A stretch of 64,000 nt of DNA from Cytophagales bacterium (GCA_013298125.1 JAAFJP010000029.1:1-64000), one strand, 5' to 3'; numbered from the stretch's first letter, positions 21,669 through 54,939 are shown. Made by a program: numbers and translations. Notes: generated by a model from the sequence alone, not told the origin.

Positions 21669-23351
21669 TTATTTCCCACTCGGTAACAATGCTTTCAAGG
21701 CATTTTCAAGGGCTTGGAAACGGATTTCGTTATTCAAATTTACATTTTTTAGCTCCAAATTCGTTTTTTTCAAATCTTCTATTTCTTTCGCTAATTGTTG
21801 AATGGCAGAAATTCCCAACATCGACAAAGCCTCATAGTCCACACTTCTGAAATCGTTTACTTCTCGACCAAAGACAAAGATTTTATCGGTTGGATATTGC
21901 CAATCTTTTACCGTAAAACTTTTACCCGAAACCTCTACTACTTCCGACTGAATCTTCCCTTTTTCTGGATGAACTAACTCTATTTTATCGCCTATTTTTA
22001 TTCCGTAATCATTTAATAATGAAACATTTAGCTTTTTACTCTGTGCATCATAGACCACACTTTCTGCCAAAGCATAAATATCTGGGATGACCTGCGTTTG
22101 TTTCTTGATTACTTCTGGATAAACAGATTCTACTTGTTGAGCAATGACTTTTTTGAAGGTTTGATTGCACCAAGTAGCCACGTCTTTCATACGATAATTG
22201 GTAATTTCGATTTTTTTGAGACACTCTAAATCTTCGGAATTGTTGGAGGGGGAGAAGTCTTTTTTGATGCGGGAGTCGGAAGAAACAACAGTAAGATATG
22301 AGCCAATGACATTATTTGAACAAATTGTACCATCTGCATAAATGGCAGCATTATTGGCTAATGGTGAGGGACTTGCCCCTGAATATGGATAAAAAACGCC
22401 ATTATTTCCAAAATAAACCCCGTAGTTTACTAATACGGGTGTCCCTGTACCGACCACGTGTAATTTAGCAATTGGGTTTTCAACTCCTATGCCTACTCGG
22501 TTATTGTCACCTCTTATGATGAAGGCAGTGTAGGGATTAGATGAGCCATTACCTACCATAAATAGCCCGTTTGGATTATTTACATTGAATTTTCCTATTG
22601 CTAATGAATAATTTCCACTTGCTTTTGTATCTTGCCCCATTGCAGTTGAAACATATCCACTTGCAATTGTTGATTGACCCAATGCAAATGATAAAGTGCC
22701 TAATGCTAATGTATTAAATCCAAATGCGGTCGAATATTCTCCATTTGCTTTTGAACCGTAACCCATTGCAAATGAATATTTCCCGTAAGCAAATGTATTA
22801 AATCCCGAAGAAAAGGAAAAAAGACCAATATTATTTGCATCCCAATAGGCGGATTCATTTGAAATATCATTAATAACAGTTCCCACTCTAAAAGCCGACC
22901 TCGAAGGAATCCACATCATACGTGTACCCGCACCACTTATAGGTGCAGTGGGCGGATTTGAAGTATCATCAGAAGAAATTGTAAGTCCAACAGGAGCCAC
23001 CGACCAAAACCCACCCGTATTCGTATTCTTAATCTCATTACCGCCTAATCCTGTTTGTTGCCAAAAGTTTACGGCGGCGGTGCTTTGGGGGAGTTCTGTC
23101 CATGTGCTATTTCGTCTGTACCAATAGCTTTGGGTGGAGATGTCAAAAACCAATAATCCATCGGCTGGGGAGACAATGGTGGTTCTTTGGGCGGTGGTCA
23201 TACGTGGGGGCAAGAGTCCTTTTGTTGTACTACTCACATCCAACATTGCTGAGGCATTGGCAGGTGTATTAGTGGCACTAATGCCTACTTGGGCAAGGCT
23301 TGAAAACCCTGCAAAGAGGATTAGTATGAGGGGAATTATTTGTTTTTTCAT
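21669..23351 (-). CDS. Tail-fiber/S74 chaperone-domain protein with YadA-head-like repeats
   Basis: Repeats 'YGKYSFAMGYGSKANGEYSTAFGFNTLALGTLSFALG', C-terminal 'SDSRIKKDFSPSNNSEDLECLKKIEITNYRMKD'. Confidence 0.85.
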   Translation of the reverse strand: MKKQIIPLILILFAGFSSLAQVGISATNTPANASAMLDVSSTTKGLLPPRMTTAQRTTIVSPADGLLVFDISTQSYWYRRNSTWTELPQSTAAVNFWQQTGLGGNEIKNTNTGGFWSVAPVGLTISSDDTSNPPTAPISGAGTRMMWIPSRSAFRVGTVINDISNESAYWDANNIGLFSFSSGFNTFAYGKYSFAMGYGSKANGEYSTAFGFNTLALGTLSFALGQSTIASGYVSTAMGQDTKASGNYSLAIGKFNVNNPNGLFMVGNGSSNPYTAFIIRGDNNRVGIGVENPIAKLHVVGTGTPVLVNYGVYFGNNGVFYPYSGASPSPLANNAAIYADGTICSNNVIGSYLTVVSSDSRIKKDFSPSNNSEDLECLKKIEITNYRMKDVATWCNQTFKKVIAQQVESVYPEVIKKQTQVIPDIYALAESVVYDAQSKKLNVSLLNDYGIKIGDKIELVHPEKGKIQSEVVEVSGKSFTVKDWQYPTDKIFVFGREVNDFRSVDYEALSMLGISAIQQLAKEIEDLKKTNLELKNVNLNNEIRFQALENALKALLPSGK

Positions 23352-24312: not shown

Positions 24313-24437
24313 CAAAACCTCACCCGAGCGTCGGTCACCCCGACCCCTCTCCAATGGAGAGGGGAGCATTTGTCCGTTTTTTTCTCCCCTCTCCGATGGA
24401 GAGGGGTCGGGGCGACCGACGCTCGGGTGAGGTTTTG
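24313..24437. repeat. Long palindromic element ([16 protein letters not shown] family, long-arm variant)
   Basis: caaaacctcacccgagcgtcggtcaccccgacccctctcc / gagaggggtcggggcgaccgacgctcgggtgaggttttg. Confidence 0.9.
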
Positions 24438-24450
24438 TTAGACTAACAAT

Positions 24451-26166
24451 TTATTTAATCACAGATTGATTCATGGCTTTAAGCGTTGCTTCGATACTTT
24501 CGAGGCGTTTGTTGAAATCTTCTTTTTGCTTGGCATTTTCTTTTTTCATGGCTTCGTTTTCCTTCGCTAATTGTTGAATGGCTGAAATTCCCAACATCGA
24601 CAAAGCTTCATAATCCACACTTCTGAAATCGTTTACTTCTCGACCAAATACAAAGATTTTATCGGTTGGATATTGCCAATCTTTTACCGCAAAACTTTTA
24701 CCCGAAACCTCCACAACTTCCGACTGGATTTTACCTTTTTCTGGATGAACCAACTCTATTTTATCACCTACTTTTATACCGTAATTTTTTGATAATGAAA
24801 TAGATAGCTTTTTAGAAGCCGCATCATACACCACACTTTCTGCCAAAGCATAAACATCTGGAATGACAGATGTTTGCTTTTTGATAACCTCTGGATAAAC
24901 CGATTCTACCTGTTGAGCCACGACTTTTTTGAAGGTTTGATTGCCCCAAGAATCGGTGTCTTTCATTCGATAATTGGTGATTTCGATTTTACGGAGACGT
25001 GCTAAATCTTCGGCATTATTTGATAAAGAAATGATATGTTTGATACGGTTATCAGAGGCAGTTACCGTTTGTGACGCACCAATGTAAAGTGCCGATACAA
25101 TACCGTGAGTGGCATAAATGGAATTATTAGAATTTGATGAAGCTGACGAAGCCAAAGTAGTATTGCCAGGATTGAAGAAACTGGATAGACTATTTGTAGA
25201 AGGGTTAAATCCTGTAACTACTAATTGTGCTTTGGGTAATGCTGGAACAGCGGTTAATCCAATAGCTACACTGCCGTTGAGCCATGTATTACCAACGGAT
25301 TTTAAGGCATAGTTTGTAACTCCACCCGTGGCTTCTGTTAAAATACCATAATTAGTTCCAGCACCTACAACACTTGCATATAAACCATAGTTTGTAGCAC
25401 TGGTATTTGCCGCAGCACTTGTAACATATGTTGTATAACCAAAGTTATTCACCAATCCACTGGCTTTTGAGCTGGTTACTTCTGAATAAACACCATAACT
25501 TGAACCAATTTCAGAGTTAACAATTCTGCTAAATGACCCATATGGTGTTCCAACCCCAGCTTGTGTTATCTCATTATAGCTTCCCATAACAGTACTTGCA
25601 AAGGAAGCGTTTTGATAGCCATAAAAACAAATATTATTATTGCCCGTTGAGCCTGTGGTAGATAAAACACCTATGTTACTATGATAAGTTGCTGCGTTTG
25701 CATTTGCTGCGAAAGCCGCTATACCTATTGCACTGTAATTATCATTAACCAATGCGTGTGAACCAGTTACAGCTAAACCCGCTCTGAGTGGATTAATAAA
25801 ACTACCCCATCCAGCTTTAGGTACACCAGTTCCAAAAACTTCTAACTTTGCGGTTGGAGAAAGAAAATTAATACCCACATTTCCTGTGCCTCCACCAACG
25901 GGCATTAAAGCAAAATTTGAGTTTGAATACCAAATAGAATTTCCATTAATTGCTCCTCCTGATTGAAAAAGGGACATTCCTCCACCTGATGAGTTTCCGA
26001 TAGCAAGGTCGTTTCCAGCAAAAGGAGAAATGGTTGAACCAATTGTTAGTCTATTTTGAGGTGACACATTGCCAATCCCTACATTTCCTGAACTAAGAGA
26101 AAGTTGAGCGTTTACTTTTGTCATTAAAAGTAAAAAAATGACCGTTATGAGTATTGCGTTTTTCAT
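24451..26166 (-). CDS. Tail-fiber/S74 chaperone-domain protein (paralogue of 21669-23351)
   Basis: C-terminal region closely similar to the 21669-23351 product. Confidence 0.85.
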   Translation of the reverse strand: MKNAILITVIFLLLMTKVNAQLSLSSGNVGIGNVSPQNRLTIGSTISPFAGNDLAIGNSSGGGMSLFQSGGAINGNSIWYSNSNFALMPVGGGTGNVGINFLSPTAKLEVFGTGVPKAGWGSFINPLRAGLAVTGSHALVNDNYSAIGIAAFAANANAATYHSNIGVLSTTGSTGNNNICFYGYQNASFASTVMGSYNEITQAGVGTPYGSFSRIVNSEIGSSYGVYSEVTSSKASGLVNNFGYTTYVTSAAANTSATNYGLYASVVGAGTNYGILTEATGGVTNYALKSVGNTWLNGSVAIGLTAVPALPKAQLVVTGFNPSTNSLSSFFNPGNTTLASSASSNSNNSIYATHGIVSALYIGASQTVTASDNRIKHIISLSNNAEDLARLRKIEITNYRMKDTDSWGNQTFKKVVAQQVESVYPEVIKKQTSVIPDVYALAESVVYDAASKKLSISLSKNYGIKVGDKIELVHPEKGKIQSEVVEVSGKSFAVKDWQYPTDKIFVFGREVNDFRSVDYEALSMLGISAIQQLAKENEAMKKENAKQKEDFNKRLESIEATLKAMNQSVIK

Positions 26167-27647: not shown

Positions 27648-27736
27648 AACCTCACCCCCAGCCCCTCTCCTTCTGAGAGGGGAGTATTCGTCCCAGTTAC
27701 TCCCCTCTCAGAAGGAGAGGGGTCGGGGGTGAGGTT
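27648..27736. repeat. 89-bp palindromic element ([12 protein letters not shown] family)
   Basis: aacctcacccccagcccctctccttctgagagggga...tcccctctcagaaggagaggggtcgggggtgaggtt. Confidence 0.9.
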
Positions 27737-30864: not shown

Positions 30865-30945
30865 AACTTCCCGAAAGTAGAAATAACTTTCGGGAAGTTG
30901 TTGGGAGACTTACTTCCCGAAAGTTATTTCTACTTTCGGGAAGTT
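30865..30945. repeat. Palindromic element
   Basis: aacttcccgaaagtagaaataactttcgggaagtt...acttcccgaaagttatttctactttcgggaagtt. Confidence 0.85.
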
Positions 30946-31418: not shown

Positions 31419-34400
31419 TTAATTATTAATTGACCCAAAACCACCTCCCCCAGGTGTGTAAATTGTTAAAATATCACCCTTTTCAGCTGAAAATTCGGTA
31501 TATGAAAAACTTGTACCGTCCTTTTTTTGAAGTAAATGCTTTCCAGTTTTACCATTTCCGCCCCCTCGCAAACCATAAGGTTCTTGCTCTTGATGCTGTC
31601 TGATTAAAGAAACTTCTACATTTTCCAAAAATTCTACTTCCCGAATGATGCCGTCTCCGCCCTTGAATCGCCCTTTTCCTCCTGAATTTTCTCTAATTTC
31701 AAAACGATTCAGATAGACTGGATAACGTAATTCCATTACTTCGGGGTCGGTAATGCGGGTATTTGTCATGTGTGTATGTACGCCCGAAGTTCCAGCAAAG
31801 CCGTTTCCTGCCCCACTTCCGCCACAGATAGTTTCGTAATACCCAAAATTAGCATTTCCGAATAAAAAATTATTCATAGTTCCTTGCGAACAAGCCACAA
31901 TTCCGAAGGCTTTAAGAAGTGTATCGGTCAATCTTTGACTCAATTCTACATTTCCGCCAACCACCGCAGGACACTCTTCTGGGTCTTCTGGAAAATTGGG
32001 ATTTAGAATTGAATCATCGGGAATAATGATTTTTACGGCTTTCAATATGCCGTCATTCAAAGGGATTTTTTCATTTAGTAATAATCGTAAAACGTAAACT
32101 ACCACTGAATTGACGATGGAAATATTAGCGTTTAAGTTTCCTGAATGTATTTTTGAAGAGCCTGTGAAGTCGATAATTGTTTGATTATCAGATATTTGAA
32201 CTTTGACTCGCAAAACCTCACCCCCAGCCCCTCTCCTACTGAGAGGGGAGATTTTTCGTCCAAATTCTCCCCTCTCAGCAGGAGAGGGGCTGGGGGTGAG
32301 GTTGTCTAAATCCAAAAACTCCTCCGCCTCATAAACCCCTTCTCCAAACGCCTTCAAACGCTCTCTCATTTTCTCAGTTGAATACGTTTTAAGTCGATTC
32401 ATGTAAAAATGGACTTTCTCTAAACCATGTTGAGCAACTAAATTTTGTAAAGCTAATTCGCCATTTCTATTAGCTGCCAAGGCGGCATTCAAATCTGCCA
32501 AATTCTCTTGTAATGAACGAGTTGGATATTTTGCTGAGGTCAAAACATTTGTAATTTCCTCCCAACGGATTTCTCCATTTTTGACTAAATACATCGGAGG
32601 AATCACTACGCCTTCTTCTGCCAAATTAGTAGAATTGGGAGGCATCGAAGCGGGACGAATACCACCAATTTCAGAATGATGACAACGATTAACTACATAG
32701 CCAATCAATTGGTTATCAATAGAATATACCGAAGAAATCAAGGTAACATCAGGTAGATGTGAGCCACCATATTTTGGGTGATTGGTAATAACTACATCAC
32801 CTTTTTGGATGTTGATATATTTCAAAACACTTCTCACACACACGCCCAAACTACCTAAGTGTACGGGTATGTGAGGGGCATTCGCAATCAATTCTGCCTC
32901 TGCATCCAACAAAGCACAAGAAAAATCAAGGCGTTCTTTTACATTTACTGAAAGAGAAGTTCTTTGTAATAAAACGCCCATGTTTTCAGCAATCGACATA
33001 AAGCGATTGGTGAATAGTTCGAGTTCTGCAAACCTCACCCCCAGCCCCTCTCCTTCTGAGAGGGGGGCAACTCGGACGAATACTCCCCTCTCAGAAGGAG
33101 AGGGGTTGGGGGTGAGGTTTAGTCGTCCCGTTTCATTTTCATCTAAAATAAACTCCCAACCTTCTTCAATTACAGTTGTACTAAATCTATCCAATAGCAA
33201 AGCAAAACCATTAATTTTTGCCCCTGATTTTAGGTTTTCTCTTATAAAAACAGGAATTGATTGATACTTATTTTCTACCAAGGAATTGATATGATGAGAT
33301 GGTTCTGGTCTGTATGGAACGCTGACTGGGTTTTGAACCCAGCCAGCGTTAATTAATTTATCATCTTTCTCACTCGCAATCACTCGAATACTCTCAATTT
33401 CGATTGCCCGATTTTCTACCCAATGCCCATAGATTGACACATATTTTTCTTTAAAATGAAAAATAACTTCCTCATAATCAGACCATTCTATTTCCAAACT
33501 CGAATCTTGCCCTTTGAATCTGAGATACAGAAAATGGTTTTTGAATTGTATATTTACCTTCAACACACCGTCATTTTCTAATTTCTGTACAACCTCAATC
33601 TCTAATTTTTCAAAATTTTGATACAGATTTTTACAAAAATTTTCATCGAAATTCTGGATTAAAGAAGCCTCTGCAAAGCGTTCAATTTTAGCCTTTGAAA
33701 TGCCAAAAGCTGACAAAATCCCTGCATCTTTGGGTAAAAGAATTGTTTTGATATTCAATAAATTAGCTATCCCACAAGCGTGTAAACCGCCCGCACCACC
33801 GAAGGCTACGAGGGCGTAATTGGTTGTATCATAGCCTTTTGAAATAGAAATTTTACGGACAGTATCAGCCATTTTTTCGTTGGCAATGGCTCTGAATCCT
33901 TCTAAAACTTCTTCTCTACTTAATAGATTACCAGATGTTTGCAATATTTCCTGCAAGCTTTCCTCGGCTTTTTCTGGAAAAACTGGAATGGAAAATTGGG
34001 TAGGATCTAATCGACCTAATAACAAATTTACATCCGTAATAGTGAGTGGTCCACCAGCCCCATAACAAGCGGGACCAGGCGTTGAACCTGCACTTTCTGG
34101 ACCTACCGAAAGTTTGTAACCATCGTAACTGCAAATCGAACCACCACCTGCCGCCACCGTTTCGATGGCTAAGGATGGACTAAAAATGTGAGCATTTCCA
34201 ATTTTTTGAGAAAATTGATATTCAAATTGACCGTCAAAGCGAGCAACGTCTGTACTTGTTCCACCCATGTCAAAGGCGATAAAGTTCTGATAACCAGCTT
34301 GTTCTGCAATCACCGAAGCCCCTACTACTCCACCCGCAGGACCTGAAAAAAGACTATCTTTTGGATAAAAAGCATCTGACCGAACCAAACTGCCCGAACT

Positions 34401-35465
34401 GGTCATTACTTTCAAATCTTGATTGGGTAATTTATCGGTGATTTTTTGAAGATAATTTGAAATGATTGGTGATAAATAGGCATTCACAACGGTAGTCTCC
34501 GCCCGATTGACAAACTTTATTTGACCACTTAATTCAGTAGAAATATTGACGAACTTGAAGTATTTAGAGAAAAACTCTTGGAGAATTTTCTCGTGAAAAT
34601 TATTTCGATAAGCGTTTTTTAGACAGATGGCTATTGACTCAATGCCTTGATTTTTAAGATGTTGAATAAGTGGTGTCAGATTTTCTTGTTGCACCAGATT
34701 CTCTGTTTCTCGTGGTGTCAGATTCTCAAATCTGACACTTGATGGGTTCTCAAACCCATTATCGTCTTGGGTTTGAGAACCCAAGTGTGTCAGGTTTGAG
34801 AACCTGACACCACCTAAGACAGAATTCTGTAAATCAATTTCTCTAATAATCTTCCCTTCAAAATCAATCTGTTCATCAATCTCGACTACTGTATTATGCA
34901 ATGGCTCTGGACGAACTATATTCAAAGCAAAAATATCTGGACGAGCCTGATTGCCTATGACTAATAAATCCTTAAAACCTTTCGTAACCACAAATGCTAT
35001 CTTTGCTCCTTTCAATTCCAAGAGGGCATTTGTGCCTTTGGTTGAGCCAATTCGCATCTGGATTGCTGGGAATTGTTCGTATAAACTTGTTTCAGTAATG
35101 AGTCTTGCTCCCAGAATTGGGGCTTCTTCTTTGGCGGTCAGAGCAAAACTAAATACCTGATTTTGAAATACTTGTGGTAAATTTTCTTCAATTTCAAGAA
35201 TCGAATTTTCAACATCAAAAGCCTTAACTCTTGCCTCGAAGGTATCACCCAAAATCAAAAAGAGATAATCGGTCAGAATATCTCTCTTCAATTGCCAAGA
35301 TTGTTTTACTTTAAATTTATTTCCAGATATATGTTCAACAACTTCTCCTCTGATAGTACTGTTCGACAGGATTTTGGTGCGGTATTCTGTTCCAAAATTA
35401 TCTGTCGCAATACAATCCGTAAAAGTCCCGCCTGTGTCTATGGAGATTTGGTAAGATTTGGTCAT
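31419..35465 (-). CDS. 5-oxoprolinase / fused hydantoinase A-hydantoinase B protein carrying three repeat-derived segments
   Basis: Hyu[35 protein letters not shown]; Hyu[46 protein letters not shown], 'TPGGGGFG' end. Confidence 0.92.
32214..32303. repeat. 90-bp palindromic element inside 5-oxoprolinase gene, in frame
   Basis: aacctcacccccagcccctctcctactgagagggga...tcccctctcagcaggagaggggctgggggtgaggtt; encodes [30 protein letters not shown]. Confidence 0.93.
33031..33119. repeat. 89-bp palindromic element inside 5-oxoprolinase gene (HyuA/HyuB linker)
   Basis: aacctcacccccagcccctctccttctgagagggg...cccctctcagaaggagaggggttgggggtgaggtt; encodes [30 protein letters not shown]. Confidence 0.93.
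34714..34811. repeat. 98-bp palindromic element of a different family inside 5-oxoprolinase gene
   Basis: ggtgtcagattctcaaatctgacac...gggttctcaaaccc...gggtttgagaaccc...gtgtcaggtttgagaacctgacacc; encodes [33 protein letters not shown]. Confidence 0.9.
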
Positions 35466-39502: not shown

Positions 39503-39613
39503 TTTAGTTTCGTTGTGGTGGTATGTTGCAAAAATACAAAAAAAAGGCTTTTGTTTATTAAAACGAAAGCCTTTTTTGCAAAGAATCAATTTGACAATTC
39601 ATATTCTTGTACA

Positions 39614-39675
39614 TTTCCAGTAGATTATCAATAGCGAGGGATTTAAATCCCTCGCTATTGATAATCTACTGGAAA
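39614..39675. repeat. Perfect 62-bp palindrome with no spacer
   Basis: tttccagtagattatcaatagcgagggattt / aaatccctcgctattgataatctactggaaa; 31 of 31 positions complementary. Confidence 0.95.
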
Positions 39676-39723
39676 TCAAAGAGTTAATTTGAAATAATAT
39701 CTAAAATTAATGAAAGATACTTT

Positions 39724-41205: not shown

Positions 41206-41320
41206 TTTATTGGTCTAAAAAATTGGTTTGTGGTTATGAAAATTCATTCATTAGCCTACAAAATTAACTCTAAAACACGTAGAATAGTTCTCTTGTTTAG
41301 AATTTTTCTATTTTAGCTTA

Positions 41321-41394
41321 ATTACAGTAGCTCGAAGTGGCACTTCGAGAATTGGAGTACAATTTCTCGAAGTACCACTTCGAGCTACTGTAAT
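41321..41394. repeat. Palindromic element
   Basis: attacagtagctcgaagtggcacttcgagaa...ttctcgaagtaccacttcgagctactgtaat. Confidence 0.9.
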
Positions 41395-41864
41395 TATATA
41401 GAAAAAGGCACAGGACGATTCAAAGACTCTTCCAAAGAAATAAAAGTCTCCGTTCGTTGAATGCCTTGCACTTTTTGAATTTTATCATGCAAAACCTCAC
41501 GAAGATGCACGGTGTCACGACAAACGATTTTAGCAAAAATTGAATAAATCCCTGTCGTATAATTAATACTAATCACTTCGGGGATTTCAGATAATTGTTC
41601 TGCCACTTCTTCGTAGAGGGAACTTTTATCTAAGTATATCCCCAAAAATGCCGATATGTCCCAACCTAATTTAGTATGGTCAATCACCAACTGAGAACCA
41701 ACTACAATACCAGCTTCCTCCATTTTGGTCATACGTACATGGACAGTTCCGCCCGATACATGGATTTTTTTTCCGATTTCGGTATATGGCATATTGGCGT
41801 TTTTCATCAAAAGGCTCAATATTTTCATATCCACCTCGTCGATTGTTATGTTTTTGTTTATCAT
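41394..41864 (-). CDS. Lrp/AsnC family transcriptional regulator
   Basis: 'IDEVDMKILSLLMKNANMPYTEIGKKIHVSGGTVHVRMTKMEEAGIV'; RAM domain. Confidence 0.93.
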   Translation of the reverse strand: MINKNITIDEVDMKILSLLMKNANMPYTEIGKKIHVSGGTVHVRMTKMEEAGIVVGSQLVIDHTKLGWDISAFLGIYLDKSSLYEEVAEQLSEIPEVISINYTTGIYSIFAKIVCRDTVHLREVLHDKIQKVQGIQRTETFISLEESLNRPVPFSI

Positions 41865-52788: not shown

Positions 52789-54939
52789 TTAAACGCCTTT
52801 CATACTCAATGCCACTCGTTTTCGAGCAATATCTACTTCCATCACTCGCACCTGTACGTGCTGTTGAAGTTTGACTACTTGATTCGGGTCAGAGACGTAT
52901 TGGTTGGCTAATTGTGAAATGTGTACTAAACCATCTTGCTTCACGCCCACATCCACAAAACACCCGAAAGCCGTAATATTAGTAACAATGCCTGGCAAAA
53001 CCATCCCTTCGTATAGGTCTTCTACTTTCTTTACGTTGGGGTCAAACTCAAACGCCATTAATTGCTCTCTGGGGTCACGTGAGGGCTTTTCTAATTCTTT
53101 TAAAATGTCTTGAAGGGTCAAAAGTCCCGTTTTTTCTGTTACGTAATCTCTGAGATTCAGGCGTTTACGTAGTTCTGCGGAGGTCATTAAATCTTTGACG
53201 GTACATTTCAAATCCTTCGCCATTTGCTCTACCACAGGATAACTTTCTGGGTGAACTGCCGAATTATCCAAAGGATTTTTTGCTTCGTGAATCCTTAAAA
53301 ATCCTGCACATTGTTCAAAGGCTTTGTCGCCCAAACGAGCAACTTTTTTGATTTGATTTCTTGACGTAAAATTACCATTTTCTTGACGGAATTTCACCAC
53401 ATTAGCCGCTAAGGCAGGTCCAAGTCCAGCTACATAACTCAGTAAATGTTTGGAAGCGGTATTCAAATTTACCCCAACCGCATTCACACAACTTTCAACG
53501 ACAGAATCCAAAGAATCTTTCAATAAATTTTGCTCAACGTCATGCTGATACTGACCTACCCCGATAGATTTAGGGTCAATTTTTACTAATTCAGCCAATG
53601 GATCCATCAATCTCCGACCAATCGAAACAGCCCCACGGACGGTTACATCTTTATCTGGAAACTCCTCACGAGCAATGGGTGAAGCGGAATAAATAGAAGC
53701 ACCTTGTTCGGACACTGCAAAAATTTGAGGTGAAACCCCACCCCCAGCCCCTCCCCGTTGGAGAGGGGAGTTTTGGAATAATTTTTTAACAAAATCCTCA
53801 GTCTCACGTCCAGCCGTTCCATTTCCAATAGCCACGGCTTCAATTTGATATTTTTCAGAGAGGGTCAAAACTTTATCCTGAGACTCAGAAGGCTTATCGA
53901 AGGGATAAATTACGGTATCTGCCAATAAATTTCCTTGGGCATCCAAAACCACAGTTTTGCATCCTGTACGATATCCTGGGTCGATGGCAAGTACCTTTTT
54001 TTGTCCCAACGGCGAAGCCAATAATAGCTGACGAAGGTTTTGAGCAAAAATCTTAATTGCCTCAATATCAGCCTTTTCTTTCGATAAACCAGCAAATTCA
54101 TTTTCGATGGATGGCTTCATCAAACGCTTATATGAATCCGTGATGGCGGTTTCAACTTCCTTCTTAGCTTCGGGCAATCCACGCAAGAAAATTCTATCCA
54201 AAGCCCCCAAAGAATTGTCTTCATCAGGGGAAATAGTTACTGACAAGAAGCCCTCTTCTTCTCCTCTTCTAATTGCTAAAAGTCGGTGAGATGGCACTTT
54301 TTTGAGCGATTCATTAAAATCAAAATAATCACGATATTTTGCTCCTTCTTCCTCCTTATTTTTCTTAACTTTGGCATACACAATCGCCTCACGCTCAAAT
54401 ACTTTACGGACAGCGTTACGAGCCTCAACGTTCTCATTAATCCACTCCGCAATGATGTCTCTCGCCCCTTGCAAAGCCTCCTCAACGTTGGCAACTTTAA
54501 CATTCAAAAATGCCTCGGCACGTTTGAGAATGTTGTTTTCTTTTTGCTCAAAAATAACCTTCGCCAAAGGTTCTAAGCCCTTTTCGATGGCGATGGTAGC
54601 ACGAGTTTTACGTTTTTGTTTATAAGGTAAATAAAGGTCTTCTAATTCTTGAAGATGATAGGCATTTTGTAATTTTTGTAATAACTCAGGAGTCATTTTG
54701 CCTTGCTCTTCGATAGACTTAATAATGCCCTCACGACGTTTATCTGCCTCTTTTAGCTTCGTCCAAAGTTCTTTTATGTCCAGAATTTGCACTTCGTCAA
54801 GACTTCCCGTTGCCTCTTTTCTGTATCGTGCAATGAAAGGGACAGTACCACCTTCGTCAAAAAGATTGATGGTATTTTGTACTTGGTGGGTCATCACGCC
54901 CACCGAATTTGAGATGATTTGGATTTGTTGTTTGTTCAT
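52789..54939 (-). CDS. tex: Tex-family S1 RNA-binding transcriptional accessory protein with repeat-derived insert
   Basis: 'VPFIARYRKEATGSLDE', 'VLAIDPGYRTGCKTVVLDAQG', HhH region, C-terminal S1 domain. Confidence 0.96.
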   Translation of the reverse strand: MNKQQIQIISNSVGVMTHQVQNTINLFDEGGTVPFIARYRKEATGSLDEVQILDIKELWTKLKEADKRREGIIKSIEEQGKMTPELLQKLQNAYHLQELEDLYLPYKQKRKTRATIAIEKGLEPLAKVIFEQKENNILKRAEAFLNVKVANVEEALQGARDIIAEWINENVEARNAVRKVFEREAIVYAKVKKNKEEEGAKYRDYFDFNESLKKVPSHRLLAIRRGEEEGFLSVTISPDEDNSLGALDRIFLRGLPEAKKEVETAITDSYKRLMKPSIENEFAGLSKEKADIEAIKIFAQNLRQLLLASPLGQKKVLAIDPGYRTGCKTVVLDAQGNLLADTVIYPFDKPSESQDKVLTLSEKYQIEAVAIGNGTAGRETEDFVKKLFQNSPLQRGGAGGGVSPQIFAVSEQGASIYSASPIAREEFPDKDVTVRGAVSIGRRLMDPLAELVKIDPKSIGVGQYQHDVEQNLLKDSLDSVVESCVNAVGVNLNTASKHLLSYVAGLGPALAANVVKFRQENGNFTSRNQIKKVARLGDKAFEQCAGFLRIHEAKNPLDNSAVHPESYPVVEQMAKDLKCTVKDLMTSAELRKRLNLRDYVTEKTGLLTLQDILKELEKPSRDPREQLMAFEFDPNVKKVEDLYEGMVLPGIVTNITAFGCFVDVGVKQDGLVHISQLANQYVSDPNQVVKLQQHVQVRVMEVDIARKRVALSMKGV
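53733..53770. repeat. Half-length palindromic repeat in frame inside tex
   Basis: aaaccccacccccagcccctccccgttggagaggggag; encodes approximately NSPLQRGGAGGGVS. Confidence 0.85.

Follow-up and report, generated by a model that had tools for sequence, protein, structure and literature searches.

Among the described palindromic repeats of bacteria, the Rickettsia palindromic elements (RPEs) and the CGTC group of repetitive extragenic palindromes (REPs) come closest to the elements considered here. Both are found inside genes, including cases of two per gene, and some REPs sit inside palindromic targets; a dedicated transposase for CGTC REPs is not known, and it has been an open question by which enzyme intragenic palindromes, CGTC REPs and RPEs among them, are mobilised (PMC3733652). 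Homing nucleases that invade coding sequence usually do so inside introns or inteins (PMC3943268). The DUF559 family has been called Vsr-like in Caulobacter (PMC12907096) and assigned to the EDxHD homing type in Thermosynechococcus (PMC9403480), and in Thiomargarita a miniature inverted-repeat transposable element (MITE) has been linked to PD-(D/E)XK proteins (PMC4853749). Here we analyse a stretch of 64,000 nt from a Cytophagales bacterium (GCA_013298125.1, JAAFJP010000029.1:1-64000; hereafter the window), in which a fused HyuA-HyuB gene of the hydantoinase/5-oxoprolinase type contains three palindromes from two families, denoted A and B, and we relate family A to DUF559 endonuclease genes. 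The whole stretch belongs to a 5.85-Mb genome in 72 contigs (G000), that of a freshwater bacterium of the genus Arcicella; orthologues of the gene are found in named Arcicella records.

Family A resembles RPEs and CGTC REPs in that its copies are short, numerous palindromes present in intergenic DNA as well as in frame within genes, including repair genes, sometimes twice per gene, and add 20-30 aa to the product. Judged against the published descriptions of RPEs and REPs, it is set apart by its sequence (AACCTCACCCCCAGCCCCTCTCC NNNN GAGAGGGGAG ...) and its Bacteroidota host, and by sharing its arms with a DUF559 endonuclease gene; a homing-type origin has not been reported for RPEs. In CGTC REPs, a terminal CGTC (TGTC/CCTC) tag adjoins an 8-9 bp stem that opens with A/T at its first two positions and bears a 4-5 nt loop, and there is a CCA tail. 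The family-A hairpin has neither a CGTC nor a GTAG tag; its inner hairpin, CCCCTCTC(C)-3 to 5 nt-(G)GAGAGGGG, starts with C residues, and CCTC is confined to the outer beginning of the long palindrome. The first-pass annotation of the window had compared the three elements to RPEs, which holds as far as mobile-type palindromes of different sequence in a constrained protein are concerned; the link to DUF559 was missing from that reading. We consider an explanation that joins family A and DUF559, including a nuclease-bearing, homing-like form, to be fairly probable as a whole; as part of it, family A, which is present in about 100 copies, would be a REP-like mobile palindrome of about 90 nt that expanded recently in this Arcicella lineage.

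Three palindromes in one oxoprolinase gene

The gene and the elements that it contains are as follows.

31419..35465, minus strand: HyuA-HyuB fused hydantoinase/5-oxoprolinase-type gene, 1348 aa, intact (open reading frame (ORF) and translation, Pfam)
32214..32303, minus strand: family-A element A1, 90 nt, in a HyuB loop, read as 30 residues
33031..33119, minus strand: family-A element A2, 89 nt, at the HyuA/HyuB junction, read as 30 residues
34714..34811, minus strand: family-B palindrome, 98 nt, in HyuA, -67.5 kcal/mol, three full-length copies genome-wide
about 34683..34826, minus strand: entire insertion at the family-B site, about 144 nt, 48 aa, from orthologue comparison

The minus-strand frame runs through 1348 codons without interruption, as first annotated, and its single chain holds complete HyuA and HyuB parts (Pfam families Hydant_A_N, Hydantoinase_A, Hydant_A_C and Hydantoinase_B). 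The closest solved structure to the product is N-methylhydantoinase 7hk5, and the model of the HyuB half matches N-methylhydantoinase 9h03 and caprolactamase 6yra. Inverted repeats were recovered at exactly the three positions where the first-pass annotation had placed the elements, with 42-nt arms of 95% complementarity in A1 and 36-nt arms of 97% complementarity in A2. Single-strand folding gives -89.3, -79.2 and -67.5 kcal/mol for A1, A2 and the B element, with z-scores of -15 (32214-32303), -11 (33031-33119) and -13 (34714-34811) against dinucleotide shuffles. The division into two families likewise stands: A1 and A2 belong to one family, with 190 arm matches in the genome versus two for the control described below, and family B is distinct from it, with three full copies and fragments genome-wide. 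The oxoprolinase is the sole gene seen with three inserts and both palindrome families.

Element-free alleles are found among relatives: all congeners examined carry them, the seven Arcicella orthologues being 1257-1281 aa long and all without the three palindromes, as are more distant orthologues. At the B site there are 61 aa in the window's protein versus 12-13 aa in 12 orthologues, a gain of 48 aa; the insertion here is longer than the 98-nt palindrome itself, since the latter is followed by degenerate additional pieces of the B end motif (GAGAATCTGGTGCA, GAAAATCTGACACCA). At the A1 site there are 34 aa versus 14 or 12 in the nearer congeners, which possess a short extension of their own, and six in the others, so that A1 contributes 28 aa over the usual 6-aa turn and 20-22 aa over the nearest congeners. 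The A2 junction measures 39 aa; in relatives, the linker at this place is unrelated and has 24-32 aa (45 in one distant relative). At the level of sequence, B and A1 are thus additions of peptide. Since the junction linkers of relatives vary, are unrelated and span 24-32 aa, A2 looks more like a replacement of, or merger into, a linker already free to vary. The proposal that the palindromes create new peptide segments is accordingly clear just for B and A1, since orthologues carry unrelated sequence of similar length at the A2 junction.

Structure prediction places the inserts in regions of low confidence. In AlphaFold models built from 13 sequences, with the HyuA and HyuB halves modelled apart, the predicted local distance difference test score (pLDDT) stays under 50 in all three inserts, each of which is bordered by well-predicted strands and helices: at residues 215-261 (B site) and 788-811 (junction) in the HyuA half, and at model positions 23-42 (junction) and 288-316 (A1) in the HyuB half. 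Unaligned inserts are expected to give low pLDDT anyway, and the models are predictions compatible with disordered loops rather than proof of them. The inserted peptides might also have been recruited for a function in the oxoprolinase, such as regulation or interaction, as has been suggested for RPEs, and the retention of three inserts in an intact gene could be read in this way. We consider this very improbable, given that the insert regions are predicted to be disordered, that the inserts are absent from relatives and that identical peptides occur in unrelated proteins; on these predictions a usefulness of the new peptides is unsupported.

The substitution pattern indicates that the oxoprolinase with its three inserts is under purifying selection. 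Outside the inserts, dN/dS (the ratio of nonsynonymous to synonymous rates) versus congeners is 0.08-0.13, and the changes unique to the window's lineage comprise 45 synonymous and four nonsynonymous ones; these ratios are approximate, since synonymous sites are near saturation and the branch is partly older than the inserts. A decaying gene whose frame is open by chance or recency, or inserts that are assembly artefacts, as the contig-level genome of 72 pieces might allow, are extremely improbable alternatives, largely refuted by this excess of synonymous changes on the gene's own branch and by the many independent intact hosts of family A, which include the sole IleRS of the cell.

Family A and the DUF559 genes of the same genome

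Copy counts of family A rest on pattern searches. With up to three mismatches allowed, its arm, CCTCACCCCCAGCCCCTCTCC, is matched 94 times forward and 96 times in reverse in the genome, versus once in each direction for the reversed control. At two mismatches there are 91+89 matches in G000 versus 0-32 in congeners, three of which (G003, G004 and G006) have no match, so the family has expanded recently. We examined 87 copies, including 62 full palindromes. Each arm forms a small hairpin of its own, CCCCTCTC-loop-GAGAGGGG, with a tetranucleotide loop that differs among copies (CGTG, TTCT, GATG, TACT, TGCT and others); the loops of the two arms are mutually complementary in 49 of the 62 full copies versus 9.5 expected from shuffled pairs. 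The sequences flanking the elements form inverted repeats modestly above chance, in some copies perfect. One copy (L113:5350-5437) is exactly centred in a palindromic target (ACTCCGATT / AATCGGAGT), and inverted flanks that exceed shuffled pairs were observed at several others.

An element was counted as intragenic if its ORF had a length of 250 aa or more and extended for 60 aa or more beyond it in both directions. By this criterion, 21 of the 87 examined elements or arms are located within 17 ORFs, two of them belonging to the IleRS nuclease insert described below. The hosts are QueA, LeuRS, MetRS, a photolyase, a YccS-like protein, MutS2, an exosortase, two AcrB-OEP fusions, a PSD1/PSCyt protein, a molybdopterin oxidoreductase, a histidine kinase, a TPR protein, IleRS and Tex, as well as a DUF4011 helicase and the oxoprolinase, with two copies each; as the helicase shows, the oxoprolinase is not the only gene to carry two inserts. 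The length is divisible by three in six of the nine intragenic full copies versus 13 of the 53 other full copies, and eight of the nine are read in one phase, LTPxPSPxERG, which fits filtering by frame after insertion. A literature search found no paper on the encoded peptides (LTPNPSP and similar) or on the arm sequence.

A genome search of G000 revealed two DUF559 genes, both in frame within larger ORFs.

L095:1289-5260 (contig C17): IleRS with a DUF559 insert, 1324 aa, DUF559 at residues 619-726
L151 (contig C46): AddB-like protein with a DUF559 insert, 1250 aa, PD-(D/E)XK domain

The label of the second is our own reading of its PD-(D/E)XK domain. The DUF559 domain of IleRS, which is single-copy, is flanked on both sides by family-A arms. 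These are located 454 nt apart, the spacer normally being about 18 nt, and over 34 nt each of them is identical in sequence to arms found in miniature copies at other places of the genome. A reading of all nuclease inserts as palindromes whose loop has been replaced was abandoned, since the AddB-like insert is flanked by two complete elements.

Alternatively, family A could consist of ordinary REP or RPE-like palindromes, or of paired REPs (REPINs), that are spread by a REP-associated tyrosine transposase (RAYT) or some other, unknown transposase and that protein loops tolerate; the association with nucleases would then be incidental. REPs and RPEs are known to occur within genes, sometimes two in one gene, and REPs may occupy palindromic targets (PMC3733652), as some family-A copies do; moreover, the genome encodes two full-length Y1 transposases, and family A shares with the REPIN/RAYT systems an architecture of two hairpin units in inverted orientation with a short spacer between them, as well as dispersal at high copy number. 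Unlike those systems, family A has no REP-type tag and no arm beside the Y1-transposase genes of G000: no arm-like sequence is located within 1.5 kb of any Y1-transposase match. A link to RAYT was rejected after inspection of the five Y1_Tnp matches, the best arm match having 8-10 mismatches in 21 positions. An incidental association is further at odds with the flanks of the G000 nucleases, which are arms of family A itself, and with the inverted repeats that flank DUF559 genes far above control (19 of 30 loci versus four of 1160 control windows at the same score). On balance we regard this alternative as unlikely.

In-frame nucleases across Bacteroidota

DUF559 was detected in 66 genomes (149 relatives searched). 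Near-full-length matches number 88; the surrounding ORF is at least 280 aa long for 36 of them and at least 600 aa long for 32. The hosts of in-frame copies include IleRS, LeuRS, methionine synthase (MetH), UvrA, methylmalonyl-CoA mutase, the A/B junction of a CoA-transferase, PurL and AddB-like proteins; HsdR and HsdM, named by eye from the sequence, are also hosts across the phylum. One ORF of 1645 aa, of which the part read is methionine synthase, contains two DUF559 domains (G014:C65:84297-86792, locus L156). G118 is independent of the cases above: an arm type that is almost restricted to this genome brackets DUF559 genes and also makes nuclease-free pairs of 110-190 bp. Terminal inverted repeats common to small forms and to a larger enzyme-encoding element, a feature of MITEs, are therefore found both in the IleRS insert and in G118. 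As in MITEs, there are small non-autonomous forms and a larger, nuclease-bearing form with the same ends; unlike in MITEs, no target-site duplication is seen, the larger form is located in frame in conserved genes, and it encodes a DUF559 nuclease rather than a DDE transposase.

The distribution of the inserts has several features in common with homing endonucleases. The IleRS insert is spanned in four of 109 genomes (G000, G031, G062 and G075), the others giving a split match with the insert missing; it occupies the same loop before DLHRP in five genera and has CCCC-rich arms on each side in all five. The allele of G035 is empty and 98% identical to that of G000 up to the insert site, and the 14 nt beside the insert match insert-bearing alleles, after which the local type resumes, a pattern that resembles co-conversion. 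As a separate observation, G035 (L185), which is listed under another genus, shares 95-98% identity with G000 in IleRS, although its oxoprolinase is far more diverged (60% identity over the HyuA part), which suggests transfer or uneven relatedness.

In the nuclease tree, the inserts of IleRS (five genera, support 98/93), AddB-like proteins (100/98), HsdR (100/100) and CoA-transferase (99/88) each form a single clade, and the two nucleases of G000 fall into different clades; four rows labelled as free lie in large ORFs with unnamed hosts. Judging from this tree, nuclease lineages group mainly by host gene and not by genome, like homing endonucleases. The inserts also share with EDxHD/Vsr-like enzymes such as I-Bth0305I (PMC3943268) a small nuclease, conserved host genes, fixed sites, a patchy distribution, lineages that follow the site and possible co-conversion. 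In contrast to those systems, there is no self-splicing intron or intein, the nuclease apparently stays in the host protein, and REP-like palindromes bracket it. No intein or Hint family was found in Pfam or NCBIfam scans of the host proteins, nor any intron RNA: five loci gave no Rfam match at the gathering threshold, and the oxoprolinase locus matched no Rfam family. The host frame runs on through the nuclease insert.

The order of events might have been the reverse, with independent palindromes serving as landing sites that were invaded by DUF559 homing genes, the present arms being the split target. The palindrome in IleRS is indeed split at its loop, there are genomes with palindromes in which no DUF559 gene was detected, and some insertion sequences target REPs, which provides an analogy. 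The arms around the IleRS inserts of five genera, however, would then require a prior palindrome at this IleRS site in each line or shared descent of both components, and no IleRS with a bare palindrome was identified, though no specific search for one was made. We consider this order of events quite unlikely.

Proposed mechanism and other repeats in the window

In the explanation that we prefer, palindromes of about 90 nt (family A) spread through the genome, family B being a rarer, separate palindrome. Because at least two reading phases of the family-A arms are free of stop codons, some of the copies that land in protein loops would persist as translated, disordered inserts, and the oxoprolinase would have accepted three such inserts while remaining under purifying selection. 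Family A would belong to a wider kind of Bacteroidota element in which palindromic arms surround a gene for a DUF559 (Vsr/PD-(D/E)XK-type) endonuclease. The nuclease-bearing form would act as a homing endonuclease gene inserted in frame in loops of conserved genes, with the nuclease translated as part of the host protein, removed by neither intein nor intron, and this nuclease or its relatives would mobilise the forms of about 90 nt. The palindromes, their copy number, the empty alleles, the intact and constrained host gene, the arms common to small elements and nuclease inserts, the in-frame nucleases and their grouping by host gene can be read from the sequences; from these we infer translation of the inserts, an active nuclease that homes, and mobilisation of the 90-nt elements by it or its relatives.

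Several observations weigh against this scheme. No excess of flanking direct repeats, as expected of target-site duplication, was found in the 62 full copies at offsets from -12 to +12. Four genomes (G001, G002, G005 and G015) have arms and no detected DUF559 gene, and a resident nuclease is therefore not strictly needed; together with family B, which is separate and without a known link to the nuclease, they indicate that the nuclease is not the whole story. The small elements are dispersed and the nuclease inserts site-restricted, so that one mechanism may not explain both. Furthermore, the nuclease of the AddB-like gene lies between two complete, somewhat longer family-A elements, the LeuRS inserts are not one clade and those of MetH not a perfect one, and the tract resembling co-conversion in IleRS is short.

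DUF559 is a candidate for an enzyme that mobilises intragenic palindromes, being physically bracketed by such palindromes in two unrelated genomes. In-frame nucleases in the sole IleRS of a cell would also challenge the rule that homing into coding sequence relies on introns or inteins (PMC3943268), and they offer a testable case of proteins that tolerate, and possibly carry, an active foreign nuclease. No description of DUF559 with palindromic arms in frame within host proteins was found in the openly available literature, subscription literature lying outside the search. The in-frame, palindrome-bracketed nuclease thus appears to be an undescribed form of gene-invading DNA, its novelty being provisional because subscription papers were not covered. 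More tentatively, we suggest a new class of gene-invading elements. It would comprise homing-type DUF559 genes bracketed by REP-like arms with open reading phases, each element being translated in full and without splicing within conserved proteins (IleRS, LeuRS, MetH, UvrA, HsdR), and nuclease-free forms of about 90 nt at about a hundred sites, some of them in genes with three inserts such as the oxoprolinase. Such a class would provide a mobilising enzyme, so far lacking, for one kind of intragenic palindrome.

Further family-A sequences in the window are the following.

27648..27736, no strand assigned: third family-A copy, intergenic; repeat families D2/D3, inverted repeat I1
24313..24437, no strand assigned: variant family-A copy with longer outer arms (CCTCACCCGAGCGTCGGTC...), intergenic; inverted repeat I3
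53734..53770, no strand assigned: half family-A element, one arm, inside the Tex ORF 52789-54939; repeat family D2, Pfam Tex domains

The arms of the variant copy (24313-24437) are 54 nt long and 94% complementary. Long, near-perfect palindromes of other sequence are located in or near intergenic DNA at 30865-30945, 39613-39676 and 41319-41396 and probably represent further repeat families. Finally, a direct repeat of 300 nt with 87% identity (21747-22046 and 24523-24822) is found within the neighbouring ORFs 21669-23351 and 24451-26166.

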